NCBI GenBank assembly: GCA_937910235.1 | Contig: CALENB010000135.1 | Location: 1 to 50,433, forward strand | Source of the DNA: an uncultured Myxococcales bacterium | Lineage (GTDB): Bacteria; Myxococcota_A; UBA9042 | Direction: 5' to 3' | DNA: 50,433 nt | Part shown: positions 4,478 through 44,239 of the stretch, in pieces | Numbering within the stretch: position 1 is the first letter of the stretch | How the letters are laid out: each line of letters starts with the position of its first letter | Notes under the pieces: model-generated | Told to the model about the DNA's origin: nothing | Seen by the model: only the letters and a program-made list of their open reading frames with translations | Database searches by the model: none | Translations under genes and position numbers: made by a program

Positions 4478-5989
4478 TCAACTAGCCTGGGCGTCTGCGC
4501 TGGCGATGGCGCGGTGCACCAACCCCTCCACGTCGTCCGCGACGATGGCGACGGCGACACCGATCTTGAGGCGCTGCAGAAACGAGTGACCTTGGATGAC
4601 GTAGGCCCGGTCCTCGATCGCCGTGCGCAGACGGCGGACCACGATGGCGACCTCCATCTCGCGCACTTGCGTCAACACGGTCAGGATGCGTCCGGTTGGT
4701 TCGATGCCACCTACGTCGGCGCCGCGCAAGGTGGCGCGGACGCGGGCGCCGGATTCACTCAAGATGGCGTCCCGGTAGGCATAGCCGCGATGCCACGCCG
4801 CCTCTTCGAGGCCGACGAGCTCCATGGCGACCACCGCGCATCCCCGACCGTCGCGCGTGGGCTGCTGCAGCGCGCTCAGCAGCTGCGCGCGGAGGTGGCC
4901 CGGCCGCGCGAGCAGGGTCACCGGGTCGACCTGGGCGCCGTATTGCCGAACGAAGCCTGTGCGTGCCTGCTGCCGCATCGCGTCGTTCAACGCGTCGACC
5001 TGCGCGGCGTTCTGGGCGTGGGCGACGAGCGCCGACTCCATCGCAAGCAGGCGTCTGAGCAGATCGCGGAGCTTCTGATCTTCAGTGCGGCGGCCGAGCG
5101 GATCGACCGGCAGGTGGCTCAGAATCAGGCGTCCGATCACGTGCACGCTGCCGAGGTAGATGCCAAGTGGCAGCCCGATCCGGCCGTGAACACGGCCGAG
5201 CCGCAGCCGCGCGTTGACCCAAGCGTCACTCAGCGGATCGTCCGCGAGGCCGCTGAGGTGCTTGTGCAGGATCGCGACCATGCGACCGCGGTCGGCGTCG
5301 GAGCCGAGGAAGATCTTGGCCTGCGGATGCTGGCTCATCTCGGCGAAGAAGGCCGTGGCGATGGCGTCGAGGTGCGGGGTGATGACGTCATGCTGCAGCT
5401 TCGCCGCCAGCAGCCGATCGGCCGGTCGCCACGCCACCAACGGCAGCAGCAACGCCAACGCCGCCGCGCTCTCGCTCATGGCGCGGTGCATGCCCGTGTC
5501 CGCGAGCGGTCGGACGCGCTTGGCCGGCTTGCTCACGACCGCCTCGGGTTCGTCGTCGATGGCCGGCATCGCCGTGACGGACACGGTGCGCTCCTCGGCG
5601 GCGTTCACGTCCGCTTGCGGCATCGACCCAGCCGCCACCGAAACAGACCCCGTGGCGTCGAGAGTCGACTCGGCCGTCGCCGTGATCGACACCGCCGGGT
5701 AGTCCGCGGTCGGCGCCTCGACCTCGAGTTCACGGGCTTTTCGCGCGGTCCGCGGCAGCCCCGGTGCCCCGCCCTGGCCACCGCGTGGCGACCAGGTCGC
5801 CAGATCTCCCTGCGTGACCTCGGTGTCGGCGAAGGCGCCGGTTTGCGAGAGATCGTCCCGCCACTCGGCTACGTTCGCGTCGTCGCCAGCCGCGTCGTCG
5901 CCAGCCGCGTCGTCGCCAGCCGCGTCGTCGCCAGCCGCGTTGTCGCCGACGATCAGCGCGTCGCGTTCGTCTGGACTCTGTTTCGACAT
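4478..5989 (-). CDS. Globin-coupled sensor with degenerate GGDEF domain
   Basis: Residues 1-165 are disordered and begin with five GDDAA-type repeats. Residues about 180-300 resemble a protoglobin-type sensor domain: the segment RLGRVHGRIGLPLGIYLG matches the F-helix region, with His268 as the likely proximal haem ligand. Residues about 350-500 resemble a diguanylate cyclase domain (DPVTLLARPGHLRAQLLSAL corresponds to the usual D-x-LTGLxNR-x-x-L start), but where GGDEF should be (about 431-435) the sequence reads PTGRI. Haem-globin/GGDEF fusions such as DosC sense oxygen and make c-di-GMP; this one probably senses gas but cannot cyclise GTP in the usual way. The start MSKQSPDERD at 5989 is a proper ATG; the longer frame to 6058 looks like non-coding leader. 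Confidence 0.75.
   Translation of the reverse strand: MSKQSPDERDALIVGDNAAGDDAAGDDAAGDDAAGDDANVAEWRDDLSQTGAFADTEVTQGDLATWSPRGGQGGAPGLPRTARKARELEVEAPTADYPAVSITATAESTLDATGSVSVAAGSMPQADVNAAEERTVSVTAMPAIDDEPEAVVSKPAKRVRPLADTGMHRAMSESAAALALLLPLVAWRPADRLLAAKLQHDVITPHLDAIATAFFAEMSQHPQAKIFLGSDADRGRMVAILHKHLSGLADDPLSDAWVNARLRLGRVHGRIGLPLGIYLGSVHVIGRLILSHLPVDPLGRRTEDQKLRDLLRRLLAMESALVAHAQNAAQVDALNDAMRQQARTGFVRQYGAQVDPVTLLARPGHLRAQLLSALQQPTRDGRGCAVVAMELVGLEEAAWHRGYAYRDAILSESGARVRATLRGADVGGIEPTGRILTVLTQVREMEVAIVVRRLRTAIEDRAYVIQGHSFLQRLKIGVAVAIVADDVEGLVHRAIASADAQAS
5881..5940. repeat. 15-bp minisatellite in the globin-sensor gene
   Basis: Four exact 15-bp units (cgtcgccagccgcgt on the plus strand) encode the acidic GDDAA repeats near the N-terminus. 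Exact identity of all units, including wobble bases, points to recent slippage or expansion. Confidence 0.92.
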
Positions 5990-37845: not shown

Positions 37846-39807
37846 ATGCAACCCGCTGAGATGCAGCCCACCGAAACGCAGCCCACCGACACGCAGGCCA
37901 CGCTGAAGTCGGTCTTCGGATTCGACACCTTCCGCCCCGGCCAAGCCCAGACCATTGAGACCCTGCTCGCCGGTCGGCCGGCGCTGGCGATCTTCCCGAC
38001 CGGCGGTGGCAAGAGCCTGTGTTATCAGCTGCCCGCCCTGCTCCTGCCGGGGCTGACGCTGGTGATCTCGCCGCTCATCGCGCTGATGAAAGATCAGGTC
38101 GACCAGCTCCAGCGCCTGAACGTCGCCGCGGCGAAGTTAGATTCGAGCCTGAGCGGCGACGAGGCCCGCGCCATCTACAACCGTATGGAAGACGGCTCCC
38201 TCAAGCTGCTCTACGTCGCGCCTGAGAGGCTGGGAAATGAGGGTTTTCGCGCTCGTTTGCGCCGCGCGCAGCTGAGCATGCTGGCGATCGATGAAGCGCA
38301 CTGCATCTCGGAGTGGGGCCACAACTTCCGGCCGGACTACCTGAAGATCGCCGCTTTTGCCCAGGAGCTCGGCATCGGCCGCATCCTCGCGTTGACGGCG
38401 ACGGCCACACCTGCGGTGGCGGCGGACGTGCGCGCGGCGTTTGCCATCGCCGAGGCCGACCACGTGCAGACCGGATTTCATCGACCCAACCTCACCTTGC
38501 GCGTGCATCGCTGTGCAGGCCCCGATCGCATGGCGAAGCTGATCGAGCGGCTGCACGCCCAAGGTGGCGGCGCGACCATCGTCTACACCACCCTGCAAAA
38601 GACCGCGGAGCAGGTGTCGGCGGCGCTGGGTCGGGCCGGGTTCAACGCGGCCGTCTACCACGCCGGCCTGAAACCGGAGCGGCGCTCGGCGACGCAGGAC
38701 GCGTTCATGGCCGGCGAGGTGCCCATCGTGGTGGCGACCATCGCGTTTGGCATGGGCATCGACAAGGCCGATATTCGCGCCGTTTATCACTACAACCTGC
38801 CAAAATCCCTGGAGGGTTACTCTCAGGAGATCGGTCGCGCCGGTCGAGACGGCGCCCCCTCACGCTGCGAGCTGCTGGCCTCGGGCGACGATCAGGCGGT
38901 GCTCGATAACTTCTCCTTTGGCGACACGCCGACCACGGACGCGCTGCGGGGCGTGGTCGCGGCGCTCTTTGGGGCCGGGGAGGTGTTCTCGGTGTCGCGC
39001 TACGAGCTCTCTCGCGACCATGACATTCGTCCGCTGGTGGTGGCGACCATCCTGACCTACCTGGAGTTGGAGGGGATTCTGCGGGCGACCGGGCCGTTCT
39101 ATGCCGGCTATAAAGTCCAGTTCACCACGCCGCGGGCGCAGATCTATGCACGCTACAACGCCGACCGCGCAGCCTTCCTCGCCTCGGTCTTTGACGCCGG
39201 AAAGATGGGCCGGACCTGGCTGACGCTCGACCCCGACGAGGTCGCCGCGCAGATCGACCAGCCCCGGGACCGCGTCGTGGCCGCCGTGAACTACCTGGAG
39301 CAGCAGGGTGACGTGACCACCCAGCCCTCTGGCCTCCGTCACGGCTATCGGCGGCTGACCGACCCGCCCCAAGCGGACGTCGTCGCCAAGCTCGCCGCGC
39401 TGTTCAGCAAGCGCGAAGCCAACGACATCGCGCGCACCGCCCGTGTTTTGGCCTTCGCAGAGCTCGACACGTGCCTGACGGCGGCGTTGGTCGGCTATTT
39501 CGGCGAGCACCTGGCTGGCCCCTGCGGCCACTGCGGCCCCTGCTTAGGCGAGCCCGGCGGCGCGCTGCCACGCGCCGCGGCCGGCACGCTGGGTGATGCA
39601 GAGCGGCGACTGGTGCAGGAGGTGACCGCGGAGGACCACGCTGCGCTGACGCATCCACGGGCGTTGGCGCGCTTTCTGTGTGGCCTGAGCAGCCCAGCGC
39701 TGCAAGGGCGAAACGGCCTGCAACGCGACCGGCGCTTCGGTCGACTGGGACAACTCCCCTTTCTGCGCGTGCTGGAGATCGCCGAACTGGCAAAATCTTC
39801 GCGCTAG
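37846..39807 (+). CDS. recQ: ATP-dependent DNA helicase RecQ
   Basis: This 653-residue 3'-5' helicase acts in recombinational repair. Motifs are FRPGQAQTIETLLAGRPALA (motif 0/Q), PTGGGKSLCYQLPALL (Walker A), AIDEAHCISEWGHNFRPDY (DEAH box and aromatic-rich loop), LTATATPAV, VYHAGLKPERR and QEIGRAGRDG (motif VI). A zinc-binding region with CGHCGPCLG follows at about residue 560. The C-terminus lacks an obvious HRDC domain and instead ends with a short LTHPRALARFLCGLSSPAL helix unit found in many RecQ proteins. The N-terminal Gln/Pro/Thr repeats (MQPAEMQPTETQPTDTQ) mean the start could also be five codons later. Confidence 0.93.
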   Translation: MQPAEMQPTETQPTDTQATLKSVFGFDTFRPGQAQTIETLLAGRPALAIFPTGGGKSLCYQLPALLLPGLTLVISPLIALMKDQVDQLQRLNVAAAKLDSSLSGDEARAIYNRMEDGSLKLLYVAPERLGNEGFRARLRRAQLSMLAIDEAHCISEWGHNFRPDYLKIAAFAQELGIGRILALTATATPAVAADVRAAFAIAEADHVQTGFHRPNLTLRVHRCAGPDRMAKLIERLHAQGGGATIVYTTLQKTAEQVSAALGRAGFNAAVYHAGLKPERRSATQDAFMAGEVPIVVATIAFGMGIDKADIRAVYHYNLPKSLEGYSQEIGRAGRDGAPSRCELLASGDDQAVLDNFSFGDTPTTDALRGVVAALFGAGEVFSVSRYELSRDHDIRPLVVATILTYLELEGILRATGPFYAGYKVQFTTPRAQIYARYNADRAAFLASVFDAGKMGRTWLTLDPDEVAAQIDQPRDRVVAAVNYLEQQGDVTTQPSGLRHGYRRLTDPPQADVVAKLAALFSKREANDIARTARVLAFAELDTCLTAALVGYFGEHLAGPCGHCGPCLGEPGGALPRAAAGTLGDAERRLVQEVTAEDHAALTHPRALARFLCGLSSPALQGRNGLQRDRRFGRLGQLPFLRVLEIAELAKSSR

Positions 39808-39966
39808 ATTTGGGTGGATTTATCGCTGGTTAACAAGCTGTTAGCGCGACCTGGTGGCCGCGGTGGCGACAAGATGCGGCGCGGGCGTTGATTTGAGCGG
39901 CGACTCGCAGCATGGTCCGGGAGAGGACGGACAGCCGCCGAGGAGACTCGACCTGTTCAACCCCGT

Positions 39967-40040
39967 GCGCTTGTAGCTCAGCTGGATAGAGCATCGGCCT
40001 TCGAAGCCGAGGGTCGCAGGTTCGAATCCTGCCGGGCGCG
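39967..40040 (+). tRNA. tRNA-Arg (UCG anticodon)
   Basis: A full cloverleaf folds by hand. Acceptor GCGCTTG pairs with CGGGCGC (two G-U pairs), the D stem GCTC with GAGC, the anticodon stem TCGGC with GCCGA and the T stem GCAGG with CCTGC. The anticodon loop CTTCGAA gives anticodon TCG, reading CGA. The T loop is TTCGAAT and the discriminator base is G; CCA is not encoded. A 27-bp stretch of its 3' end is repeated at 42191. Confidence 0.93.
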
Positions 40041-40044
40041 CCGA
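40018..40044 (+). repeat. attL-like copy: 3' end of tRNA-Arg
   Basis: This 27-bp segment begins in the T stem and ends four bases past the tRNA. It is repeated in direct orientation at 42191-42217 with 24 of 27 bases identical; mismatches are at offsets 5, 16 and 19. tRNA 3' ends are classic attachment sites for tyrosine-recombinase elements. Confidence 0.72.
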
Positions 40045-40050
40045 GACGAG

Positions 40051-40090
40051 GAGGGGAGACAGCTTGGGCTGGCTTCCCTTTTCTCGTTTT
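40051..40090 (+). terminator. Probable terminator after tRNA-Arg
   Basis: Positions 40051-40057 (GAGGGGA) pair with 40075-40081 (TCCCTTT) through seven pairs, two of them G-U, around an inner AGC/GCT stem. The hairpin is followed by the T-rich run TTCTCGTTTT. It starts 10 bases after the tRNA. Confidence 0.5.
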
Positions 40091-40295
40091 GTGGCTGGCG
40101 GCTTGGTGATCCTGGCCGCCGTCGGCTCGCGACCCTCCTGCCGACTGCCAAGCCACCGAAACGCCCGGAGATCCGGCTCGGCAGACGCATGGCCCTGCGC
40201 TCACGTACCGCGGCGTCTCTTGTCCAGCCTCGTCCAGCCTCGTCCAGTCTTGGCGAGTCGTCTCGTTTCGCCGACACACGCACGCCGCTCCACAT

Positions 40296-40467
40296 GCCGA
40301 ACATGTAAAACATCTCAAATGATGTTTAGACCACAATTATGGCTATAAAACATCAAATATGAACGATTATAACCATGGCGTTTGCCTTCAACGCCGAGAC
40401 CTGATAAACAATCAACGCTGACTCGTTACAAAGGAATCCGCCAGATAAACTTCATAAAAGATGTCCT
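40296..40467 (+). promoter_or_regulatory. AT-rich hipBA control region with inverted repeats
   Basis: The 170 bp before hipB are strikingly AT-rich for this window. AAACATC (40308-40314) and GATGTTT (40321-40327) form a perfect 7-bp inverted repeat around TCAAAT. A further AAACATC half-site lies at 40348-40354 and GATGTC at 40460-40465. Repeated half-sites fit cooperative autorepression by HipB; several TA-rich stretches could be -10 boxes, but I cannot choose one. Confidence 0.6.
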
Positions 40468-40884
40468 ATGAAGCAAGCTGCACCCAAAACCCTCGACACC
40501 CCATACAGCAGCCTCATCAGCGATGAAGCCGCGCTGACCGAGCTGGGCGCGCGTCTGCAACGGCAGCGTCTCGATCGCAACATCACACAAGCATGGCTCG
40601 CGACCGAAGCCGGCATCTCCCTACCCACGCTGCAGCGCCTAGAAGCGGGCGCTTCGGTGCAGCTCACGAGCCTCTTACGTGTCCTGCGCGCCCTCAACTT
40701 GCTCGGCAACCTCGACGCCCTGGTACCGGCGCCCACCATTCAACCCATGGCGTTGCTACGTCGCAAAGGGCGACGACGGCAGCGCGCGTCGTCTGACCAC
40801 GCCGCGACGGGCGATCCCCAATCGGGCCATCCACCCGACGACGCCACGAGGCCCGATCGGCCACCGTGGACCTGGGGCGAGTAG
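40468..40884 (+). CDS. hipB: HipB-type antitoxin, XRE helix-turn-helix protein
   Basis: This 138-residue protein contains a Cro/CI-type helix-turn-helix at residues 25-70 (LGARLQRQRLDRNITQAWLA, then EAGISLPTLQRLEAGASV). In HipBA pairs this protein binds the operon promoter and neutralises the HipA kinase. It is longer than usual: a basic, disordered tail of about 50 residues (RRKGRRRQRASSDH and on) follows the DNA-binding part. The stop TAG touches the hipA ATG directly, so the two are coupled. There is no strong Shine-Dalgarno sequence before its own ATG. The pair lies between the two copies of the tRNA 3' end. Confidence 0.87.
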   Translation: MKQAAPKTLDTPYSSLISDEAALTELGARLQRQRLDRNITQAWLATEAGISLPTLQRLEAGASVQLTSLLRVLRALNLLGNLDALVPAPTIQPMALLRRKGRRRQRASSDHAATGDPQSGHPPDDATRPDRPPWTWGE

Positions 40885-42192
40885 ATGAGCGTGCCCGTCG
40901 CCGTTCAGCTGTGGGGCCGTGTTATCGGCGCGATTGTCGTCCCCGAGGGAGACGAGGTCGCGGCATTTCAATACGACCCCGACTTCGCCCGAAGCGGCAT
41001 CCAGGTCGCGCCGTTCATGATGCCGCTCAGCGACGCAGTCTACCGTTTTCCGGGGCTGTCCCGGCAGAGCTTCCATGGTCTGCCAGGCATGCTAGCGGAC
41101 GTGTTGCCCGACAAGTTCGGCAACGCCGTCATCGACGCCTGGCTCGCACGCCAGCACCGCACCGCGGCGAGCTTTGGCGCGCTCGACCGACTCTGTTACA
41201 TCGGTCGACGCGGCATGGGCGCGCTGACGTTCGAGCCCGCCACGGGCCCAATCGACGCACAGAGTGACGTAGCGCTCAACATCAACGCGCTTCGGCAGCT
41301 CGCCGCGGAGGTGCTGCAGAAGCGCGCCGGCTTCGCTGCCAATAGCGCTGATGCACCCGAGGACGCGCTCCGCGACATCCTACGTGTCGGCACCAGCGCA
41401 GGCGGCGCCCGGGCCAAGGCCCTGGTGGCATGGAACGCCGAGACCGGTGAGCTACGCTCAGGCCAACTCGACTGTCAGCCCGGATTTCGGCAGTGGTTGC
41501 TGAAGTTCGACGGCGTCGCGCGCAACGCAGACAAGGAACTCGACGACCCCCAGGGATACGGCGCGGTCGAGTACGCCTACCACCACATGGCCATGGCGGC
41601 TGGTGTGACCATGAGCCGCTGCCGCCTTTTTGAAGAGGGCGGGAGACGTCACTTCATGACCCAGCGCTTCGACCGACGAGCCGACGGCGCTCGCCTACAC
41701 ATGCAATCGCTCGGTGCGCTGGCGCACTTGGACTTCAACCAAGCACGCGCGCACGGCTATGAACAAGCCTTGCTGATCATGCGGCAACTCGGCCTGCCCA
41801 AGGCCCAAATCGAGCAGCAATTTCGCCGCATGGTCTTCAACGTCGTCGCCCGCAACCAGGACGACCACGTGAAGAATATCGCATTCCTCATGGATAAGAC
41901 CGGCCGCTGGTCGCTCGCTCCGGCTTTTGATGTGACGTGGGCCTACAACCAGCAGGGCAGCTGGACACACCGACATCAGATGACGATCAACGGAAAATCC
42001 GACGATCTCTCCTTCGCGGACTTTGAAGCGGTCGGAGCGCTCGCTGCGCTGCGCCGTGGTCGCCCGCGCGCCATCCTCAACGAGGTCGTCGACGCGGTGC
42101 GTACGTGGCCAACCATCGCCGCCGAGATCGGCGTCGACTCCGCTTGGCGAACCCAGATCGCCGCTAGCCATCGCTTGGACTGGGCGTCGTAG
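40885..42192 (+). CDS. hipA: HipA-family serine/threonine kinase toxin
   Basis: HipA toxins phosphorylate targets such as glutamyl-tRNA synthetase and stop growth. The 435-residue protein has the couple-HipA N-terminal domain (residues 1-115), the Gly-rich, Ser-containing loop VGTSAGGARAKALVAW (168-183) and the catalytic segment NQDDHVKNIAFL with Asp327. The metal-binding FDVT follows, with Asp349. All kinase residues appear intact, so it should be active. SFHGLPGMLADVLPD is the usual N-terminal family motif. Its stop TAG overlaps the first bases of the second att-like repeat, so the gene fills the island to its right end. Confidence 0.92.
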   Translation: MSVPVAVQLWGRVIGAIVVPEGDEVAAFQYDPDFARSGIQVAPFMMPLSDAVYRFPGLSRQSFHGLPGMLADVLPDKFGNAVIDAWLARQHRTAASFGALDRLCYIGRRGMGALTFEPATGPIDAQSDVALNINALRQLAAEVLQKRAGFAANSADAPEDALRDILRVGTSAGGARAKALVAWNAETGELRSGQLDCQPGFRQWLLKFDGVARNADKELDDPQGYGAVEYAYHHMAMAAGVTMSRCRLFEEGGRRHFMTQRFDRRADGARLHMQSLGALAHLDFNQARAHGYEQALLIMRQLGLPKAQIEQQFRRMVFNVVARNQDDHVKNIAFLMDKTGRWSLAPAFDVTWAYNQQGSWTHRHQMTINGKSDDLSFADFEAVGALAALRRGRPRAILNEVVDAVRTWPTIAAEIGVDSAWRTQIAASHRLDWAS

Positions 42193-42217
42193 GTGCGAAT
42201 CCTGCGGGCCGCGCCGA
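42191..42217 (+). repeat. attR-like copy of the tRNA-Arg 3' end
   Basis: This direct repeat of 40018-40044 (24 of 27 identical) carries no tRNA 5' part. It reads aggtgcgaatcctgcgggcc and so on. It begins inside the hipA stop codon and marks the right boundary of the presumed inserted unit. Confidence 0.72.
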
Positions 42218-42307
42218 CATCTAACCCCAAACCGGTCCTAGAAGCTGAAGTTTACGGGCGAAAAGTCGACACCTTCACAACCTGACAGCCCCGCGCAATC
42301 ATCCCGC

Positions 42308-44239
42308 ATGATTACGAACCCCTCCCACGTTCTGTCCCTCGTCGCCGCCTTCGCCCTCATCGCCATCGCCTCCGATCGTATCGGGCAGTGGATCAGCCGC
42401 TGGCGCCTGCCACTCATCACCGGCTTCCTCGGTACCGGCGTGATCGCTGGCCCGTACGCGCTCGGCCTCATCAGCACCGACACCGTCCATGCCCTCGGCT
42501 TTGTCGACCAAGTGTCGCTCGCCGTCATCGCTTTTGCCGCCGGTAACGAGCTCTTCCTGAAAGAGATCCACAGCCGCCTGCGCTCCATCGCCTGGATCAC
42601 CGGGGTGCAGCTCATCACCACCAGCGTCATCGGCGGCACCGCGGTGTTTCTGATGGCGGACTTGATCCCGTTCATGGCCGATATCCCCACCGCCGGCAGG
42701 GTGGGGATCGCCATGCTCGCCGGCGCGATCCTCGTCGCGCGCTCGCCTTCGTCGGCCATCGCCATCGTCAACGAGCTGCGCGCCAACGGCCCCTTCACCA
42801 AGACCGTGCTCGGCGTGACCATGGTCACCGACATCGCGGTGATCCTGCTGTTTGCGGTGGCGTTCTCCATCGCTGGATCGCTGCTCTCAGGCGACGCCTT
42901 CAACCTGATGTCGGTGGTGATCTTGCTCGGCGAGATCGGCGCGTCTGTCGCCGTCGGGGTCGCGCTTGGCGTCGTGCTCGACCGCATCCTGCAGCTCGCG
43001 ATTCATGACTCCCTGCACAAACTCATGGTGCTGGTGCTCGGCTACGCCGTGTTCATGGGCTCCGTCGAGCTGCGCGAGTGGAGTCACGACGCCCTCCACC
43101 ATGCGTTTCATTTGGAGGCGCTGCTCATCTGCATGGTCGCTAGCTTCTGGGTGACGAACTACACGGAGTCGCGCCAAGAGCTCACCGACCTGCTCGAACG
43201 CTTGGGGCCGCCGGTCTACGTGGCGTTCTTCACGCTGACGGGCGCCTCGCTGCGCCTTGAGGTGCTGCCGGCCACGTGGCACATCGCCCTCACGTTCTTC
43301 ATCGTGCGGCTGTTTGGCATCTGGATCGGCAACCACCTCGGTGGCCGGCTCGCCTCGGAGCGGCCGCTGCATAACCGTATCGGCTGGATGGCCTACGTCG
43401 CTCAGGCCGGCATCGCGCTGGGCCTCGCCAAGAACGTCTCGGACGCCTTCCCAGCGTGGGGCGACTCGTTCGCCACCACCATCATCGCCGTCATCGTGCT
43501 CAATCAGCTCGTCGGCCCGCCCTTTATGAAGTTCGCTATCGCGCTCGCCGGTGAAGATCGCAGCCGCCACGACTCGGCCACCTTCGATGGCGTCCGCGAC
43601 GCGCTGCTTTTTGGCGGGGAGGGCAAGACCCTCGTGTTGGCCCGAACGCTCGTGCGCGCCGGCTGGAAGGTGAAGATCGCGTGTCTGGAGCCGGTTCAGC
43701 TGCGCGATGTCGCCGACGAGGACATCTCCATCCACATCATCCAACGTCTCGATGAAGGCACGCTGAACGCGCTCGACGCGACAGCCGCGGACGCCATCGT
43801 CGGCATGATGACCGACGAGCAGAACTTGGCCCTGTGTGAGCTGGCGTTCCAGCATTTCGGCACGAAAGTGATGGTCGTGCGACTCAACGATCGCGCTTGG
43901 CACGCCAAGTTCACCGAGCTAGGGGTCACCGTGATCGATCCGCGCTCGGCGGTGGTGGGTCTGCTCGATCGCGCGGTGCGCTCGCCGACATCAGCGGCGC
44001 TCGTGTTGGGTATGGAGCAGGGTCAGGACATCATCGATGTAGAGGTGATCGACCCCGACGTGCATGGCATGGCGGTGCGTGATCTGCACCTGCCGCTGGA
44101 TGTGGCGCTGACCTATGTTCACCGTGGAACGTCGATGATCTCGTCGAAAGGGACGACGGTGCTGCACGTGGGCGACCGGGTGACGCTGACCGGGCCGGCG
44201 GAGGCGCTGGATAAGGCGGTGCTTCGCTTGGGGGGCTGA
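42308..44239 (+). CDS. CPA2-type cation:proton antiporter with TrkA-N and TrkA-C domains
   Basis: This 643-residue membrane protein has a Na+/H+-exchanger domain with about 12 helices over residues 1-410 (GFLGTGVIAGPYALGL, AFAAGNELFLKEI, ARSPSSAIAIVNEL, VTDIAVILLFAV). A cytoplasmic nucleotide-binding region with a degenerate Rossmann start (LLFGGEGKTLVLARTLVRAG) follows, then a TrkA-C-like domain (VRDLHLPLDVALTYVHRG). The architecture resembles Kef/YbaL-type K+ or Na+ exchangers controlled by nucleotides. The ion is unknown. Its stop overlaps the start of the GH13 lipoprotein (TGATG), suggesting cotranscription with a functionally unrelated gene. Confidence 0.9.
   Translation: MITNPSHVLSLVAAFALIAIASDRIGQWISRWRLPLITGFLGTGVIAGPYALGLISTDTVHALGFVDQVSLAVIAFAAGNELFLKEIHSRLRSIAWITGVQLITTSVIGGTAVFLMADLIPFMADIPTAGRVGIAMLAGAILVARSPSSAIAIVNELRANGPFTKTVLGVTMVTDIAVILLFAVAFSIAGSLLSGDAFNLMSVVILLGEIGASVAVGVALGVVLDRILQLAIHDSLHKLMVLVLGYAVFMGSVELREWSHDALHHAFHLEALLICMVASFWVTNYTESRQELTDLLERLGPPVYVAFFTLTGASLRLEVLPATWHIALTFFIVRLFGIWIGNHLGGRLASERPLHNRIGWMAYVAQAGIALGLAKNVSDAFPAWGDSFATTIIAVIVLNQLVGPPFMKFAIALAGEDRSRHDSATFDGVRDALLFGGEGKTLVLARTLVRAGWKVKIACLEPVQLRDVADEDISIHIIQRLDEGTLNALDATAADAIVGMMTDEQNLALCELAFQHFGTKVMVVRLNDRAWHAKFTELGVTVIDPRSAVVGLLDRAVRSPTSAALVLGMEQGQDIIDVEVIDPDVHGMAVRDLHLPLDVALTYVHRGTSMISSKGTTVLHVGDRVTLTGPAEALDKAVLRLGG

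Follow-up and report, generated by a model that had tools for sequence, protein, structure and literature searches.

On balance, we favour the reading that the hipBA locus described here is a decayed tRNA-Arg island, similar to the cis-mobilizable elements (CIMEs), in which hipBA are the only surviving genes. In kind the locus is ordinary, a CIME-like remnant that carries a toxin-antitoxin (TA) module, and if it is a decayed tRNA island, it illustrates how an addiction module can outlast everything else in an island. The locus lies in the window, the whole 50,433-nt stretch of DNA from an uncultured Myxococcales bacterium that was analysed, and has the following features:

37846-39807, + strand: RecQ-type helicase gene (recQ; Pfam), left neighbour, outside the insert
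39967-40042, + strand: tRNA-Arg, anticodon TCG (ARAGORN; Rfam RF00005, 70.3 bits), the sole tRNA of the window
40013-40044, + strand: left repeat copy, comprising variable loop, T arm and acceptor 3' strand of tRNA-Arg plus GA (repeat search)
40043-40090, + strand: terminator-like hairpin right behind tRNA-Arg (fold of -26.6 kcal/mol, z -2.7)
40222-40247, + strand: 2.6 exact copies of the 10-mer GTCCAGCCTC (TRF)
40290-40467, + strand: control region of hipBA, AT-rich, in which a TAAAACATCnnAAATGA-like element occurs three times (repeat search, composition)
40468-40884, + strand: hipB, antitoxin with an HTH domain, 138 aa (Pfam HTH_31, HTH_3)
40885-42192, + strand: hipA, HipA-family kinase toxin, 435 aa (Pfam HipA_C 6e-51, Couple_hipA 5e-18)
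42186-42217, + strand: right repeat copy, a degenerate, attR-like tRNA-Arg 3' end, 28/32 (repeat search)
42308-44239, + strand: Na+/H+ exchanger gene with TrkA domains (kefB; Pfam), right neighbour, outside the insert

Results

A duplicated tRNA-Arg 3' end brackets hipBA

The first-pass annotation had reported a direct repeat of the tRNA-Arg 3' end, with 24 of 27 matches between 40018-40044 and 42191-42217. This was confirmed, and the real repeat is slightly longer: ungapped extension gives 28 of 32 matches between 40013-40044 and 42186-42217, and the left copy begins in the tRNA-Arg(UCG) variable loop and runs 2 nt past the end of the gene. With at most three mismatches, the 20-nt core matches twice in the window against 0.01 matches expected, and a simple 66% GC model puts the chance probability of a match of at least 28/32 within 3 kb at about 7e-9. 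The 27-mer, made degenerate at three variable positions and searched with at most three mismatches, has three sites in the 7.1-Mb genome (reversed control, 0). As the annotation had raised the case that the 27-bp similarity might be a repeat found in many places, it matters that, besides the two copies, the only further site is a tRNA-Arg 3' fragment on another contig of this genome (C134); thus, the repeat is not dispersed. Core-match expectation, chance model and whole-genome count together rule out a chance match or a dispersed repeat.

In the right copy, the invariant T55 of the T loop is changed to G, and the acceptor strand, GGGCCGC, no longer pairs with GCGCTTG at the tRNA 5' end; judged by its letters, the right copy is a worn tRNA-Arg fragment. 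Rfam detects no structural RNA besides tRNA-Arg in 39800-42400, and no fold comparable to the hairpin behind the left copy was found after the right copy. The tRNA-Arg(TCG) gene is solitary here and in a genome of the same genus (G002), and in other genera of the family it stands within a His-Arg-Lys-Leu tRNA cluster.

The insert contains an intact hipBA module and no integrase

Between the copies lie about 0.4 kb of non-coding DNA and an intact hipB-hipA pair as the sole genes, so that the earlier remark on a missing integrase is borne out by open reading frames and Pfam. The insert had also been described as an AT-rich region plus intact hipBA; the intact pair as only gene content stands, while the AT-rich part is just 40290-40467 (39% GC), the stretch 40043-40290 having 67% GC. 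Several relatives have related ACATCAAAAnTGAT elements upstream of hipB. At one locus, L092, operator-like ACATCAAATATGAT elements are found upstream of hipB and also directly behind the hipA stop.

An HTH antitoxin gene adjoins the HipA kinase gene on its upstream side, with Pfam matches above gathering scores; the NCBIfam couple_hipB match of HipB is under the cut-off. The hipB-hipA order, the HTH antitoxin and the HipA_C and Couple_hipA domains are those of hipBA type II TA modules, and the difference is in the genomic bracket alone, the module itself being unchanged. A defence-system label for HipA was dropped, as PADLOC gives no match. The hipA stop codon, TAG at 42190-42192, falls inside the right copy, as the annotation had it. 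HipA ends in ...HRLDWAS and its relatives end at nearly the same position, which means that hipA is full length with a stop codon supplied by the right copy.

tRNA-Arg fragments mark island ends in the family

Several genomes of the same family contain displaced tRNA-Arg 3' fragments of 43-49 nt that begin at the anticodon or close to it and are marks of island ends there. The one in this genome (G000) is at C134:21361-21408 (48 nt), with similar ones in G001, G003, G007, G008 and G012, the last (on contig C5) having a Phage_integrase gene 125 bp away. The duplication at hipBA, 32 nt at 88%, is shorter and less exact than these other tRNA-Arg duplications of the family. In its fragmented assembly, the present genome has only two Phage_integrase proteins, of 325 and 344 aa, and both look like XerC/XerD by length and sequence.

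CIMEs are decayed ICE/IME remnants, integrase-less and att-flanked, of 1.2-13 kb, known also at tRNA genes (PMC7563491). The hipBA locus resembles them in its att-type direct repeats, which lie at a tRNA 3' end, in lacking genes for recombination or transfer, and in its length of 2.2 kb, within the classical 1.2-13 kb. It differs in that no tandem ICE/IME is seen, one att copy is degenerate and the cargo is hipBA alone; both att-type copies are present, the right one with changes at T55 and along its acceptor strand. No parent element (ICE/IME) matching the insert was found. Likewise, the locus shares with Islander-type tDNA islands an intact tDNA with a displaced 3' fragment oriented the same way, as well as the T-stem/junction sublocation, a crossover site used in 1836 of 3919 Islander islands and one of two known crossover classes (PMC4383910); unlike them, it has no tyrosine integrase gene between its ends and thus falls outside the Islander definition.

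Related genomes and the distribution of hipBA

Across three same-genus genomes, neither neighbour gene of the recQ/kefB locus is syntenic, and the empty tRNA-Arg site that the annotation had recommended looking for was therefore not found in them: the recQ contig of G001 ends 120 codons before the end of the gene, i.e. short of the tRNA, and in both G001 and G003 the genes beside kefB differ from those here. In G002, tRNA-Arg(UCG) lies at a different locus, has just one 3' end and is not accompanied by hipBA.

The distribution of hipBA is patchy, with close relatives in 21 of 379 genomes of the phylum, in two of four genomes of the genus and in none of the other family members listed. The window HipA is sister to that of G001 (tree support 97*, 64% identical), whose hipBA (L008) is at a different locus and has no tRNA within its 1.5-kb flanks. 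The pattern shows no more than a relocation of hipBA or its independent acquisition from related donors, and a clear foreign origin of hipBA shows neither in the phylogeny nor in the composition, which is host-like with normal GC. Spread of this HipA subfamily by plasmids was rejected, the best plasmid HipA being less than 60% identical. For the 0.4-kb left region, the 19 related genomes give merely weak short matches and none that convinces. The flanks of L008 (G001:C49, about 2540-2800 and 4900-5025) place that hipBA between members of a repeat family of about 100 bp with many copies in G001, for which reason these repeats were rejected as a clean flank duplication.

Direct repeats at other hipBA loci

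Any direct repeat around hipBA was sought at loci of the HipA subfamily, with shifted windows as controls. Ungapped repeats scoring at least 20 were seen at 8 of 80 hipBA loci and in 1 of 291 controls, and gapped BLAST repeats at 10 of 98 loci and in 4 of 218 controls (p=0.0018), the present window being included in both counts. With it excluded, long imperfect flanking direct repeats are present at 9 of 97 loci against 4 of 218 controls (p=0.004); three of the nine (L008, L123, L152) have repeats with further copies elsewhere, and leaving out all such repeats gives 6 of 97 against 3 of 218 (p=0.027). L197, too, has long imperfect direct repeats at both hipBA ends. The clean flank repeats are:

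L157: 259 bp, 94%
L142: 237 bp, 89%
L154: 174 bp, 84%
L134 (Luteimonas): 360 bp, 77%
L209: 122 bp, 77%

The adjacent gene is intact at L157 and L142, and it is its 3' end that is repeated. In the coding cases (L157, L142, L154 and L209), 62 of 92 differences fall on third codon positions (p about 3e-11) and no gap breaks the frame; this means that the divergence took place while the copies were working genes, before they were joined, and it points to one-sided homologous recombination with a donor flank or to integration of a circle through homology rather than to fresh target duplication. These flank repeats suggest homology-driven insertion at the hipBA loci concerned. Loci of hipBA thus tend to have flank repeats, an unexpected and interesting pattern for which larger sampling is needed.

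Discussion

We propose that a tyrosine-recombinase element once inserted into the tRNA-Arg(UCG) 3' end, so that the intact tRNA flanked it at one border and a displaced 3' end at the opposite one, and that deletion then stripped all but hipBA. One deletion endpoint would lie in the final hipA codons, so that the displaced tRNA end now gives the stop codon. As an ordinary type II TA module, HipB would bind operators of the AT-rich region and neutralise the HipA kinase; loss of hipBA would then be costly, which would account for this piece outlasting the rest of the island. Several observations favour such a decayed island. The repeat coincides with the tRNA 3' end and begins by the T arm, at a known class of crossover site; displaced tRNA-Arg 3' fragments are present in the family and on C134, one of them near a Phage_integrase gene; and integrase-less, att-flanked remnants are a described class. 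The change of T55 and the unpaired acceptor strand are expected of a drifting displaced end, and the tRNA-Arg(UCG) of G002 has one 3' end and no hipBA, though at a different locus. Against the decayed island counts that no integrase remnant is seen in the insert, that the duplication is short and inexact for the family, and that the same-genus HipA sister and host-like composition do not show a foreign origin. The hairpin counts against it as well: in plain integration, the host's terminator ends up behind the right copy, unless the element brought its own, whereas here only the left copy is followed by it, a point in favour of a native left side.

The terminator is more at ease with an unlikely but serious alternative, namely that hipBA was inserted by homology with duplication of a flank, the tRNA end being one such flank, since the native-looking terminator then stays with the left, intact tRNA. 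Incoming hipBA with an adjoining homologous stretch would recombine at one end and close illegitimately, or a circle would integrate, so that the resident and the donor version of the flank bracket hipBA. Homology-facilitated illegitimate recombination is described in PMC3240628. The excess of flanking direct repeats at other hipBA loci and the four coding examples speak for this route, but as a substrate for homologous recombination 32 bp at 88% is short, a random event would be unlikely to hit a tRNA 3' end, and the excess shrinks when only strictly two-copy repeats are counted. The 32 bp at the tRNA 3' end are better explained by an integrase than by flank duplication, though the tRNA case could be one. 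A broader proposal, which we regard as quite improbable, is that the hipBA pairs of this subfamily spread by themselves, as cassettes of two genes lacking any mobility gene, recombination bracketing them with copies of adjacent sequence (gene ends or, here, a tRNA 3' end) and addiction stabilising the repeats. If true, it would be the TA counterpart of restriction-modification systems, which are described as inserting together with long duplications of their target (Nobusato 2000, Furuta 2010, as cited in PMC3874152). As presented in that source, these insertions likewise place an addiction module alone between direct repeats without a mobility gene; their duplications are of about 100 bp of any target, in contrast to 32 bp of a tRNA end, and at other hipBA loci, the coding flank repeats have diverged in the manner of donor and resident copies instead of looking freshly duplicated. 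Our literature search found no report of hipBA insertion with a long target duplication. How TA pairs without mobility genes spread is seldom explained, and the hipBA flank repeats would offer a route that is concrete and testable.

It is also conceivable, with a low probability, that hipBA is resident and the right copy a stray tRNA-derived fragment, e.g. the attR of an older island that later turned into the hipA end. The same-genus sister of HipA and the normal GC agree with residence, but the same-genus hipBA sits at another locus, and hipBA would lie exactly between two tRNA-Arg 3' ends by coincidence. Still less credible is the proposal of the first-pass annotation, a minimal mobile or addiction module mobilised in trans, that is, a functional integrase-less mini-element excised and moved by the integrase of another island. 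Both tRNA-type ends are still there, the short GTCCAGCCTC repeats could, by pure conjecture, be arm sites, and the family hosts tRNA-Arg integrases. The proposal is nevertheless not supported: the recombinases of this (fragmented) genome are XerC/XerD-like only, the right copy is degenerate, the 0.4-kb left region lacks a convincing counterpart in the related genomes, and no second tRNA-bracketed copy was found in the genome or among about 108 HipA relatives.

The search of other genomes for hipBA beside a tRNA gene with a duplicated 3' end, which that annotation had recommended, thus returned 0 cases among the approximately 108 relatives, and a class of tRNA-bracketed hipBA units was rejected, with none in the 80 named loci, the relatives or viral contigs; the tRNA bracket around hipBA is so far a single case. 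Among the 80 named HipA loci, a tRNA 3' end faces hipBA within about 0.6 kb at L094, L132 and L169, with a duplicated end at none of the three, and at L122 a tRNA gene lies 66 bp from hipBA, with no second 3' end. At L201, from a relative in the phylum, Rfam and ARAGORN call no gene near 2873, where a tRNA/tmRNA 3' end, GGTCAGGGGTTCGACTCCCCTCAGCTCCACCA, with the rest of its gene missing, lies on the minus strand about 80 bp past the hipA stop.
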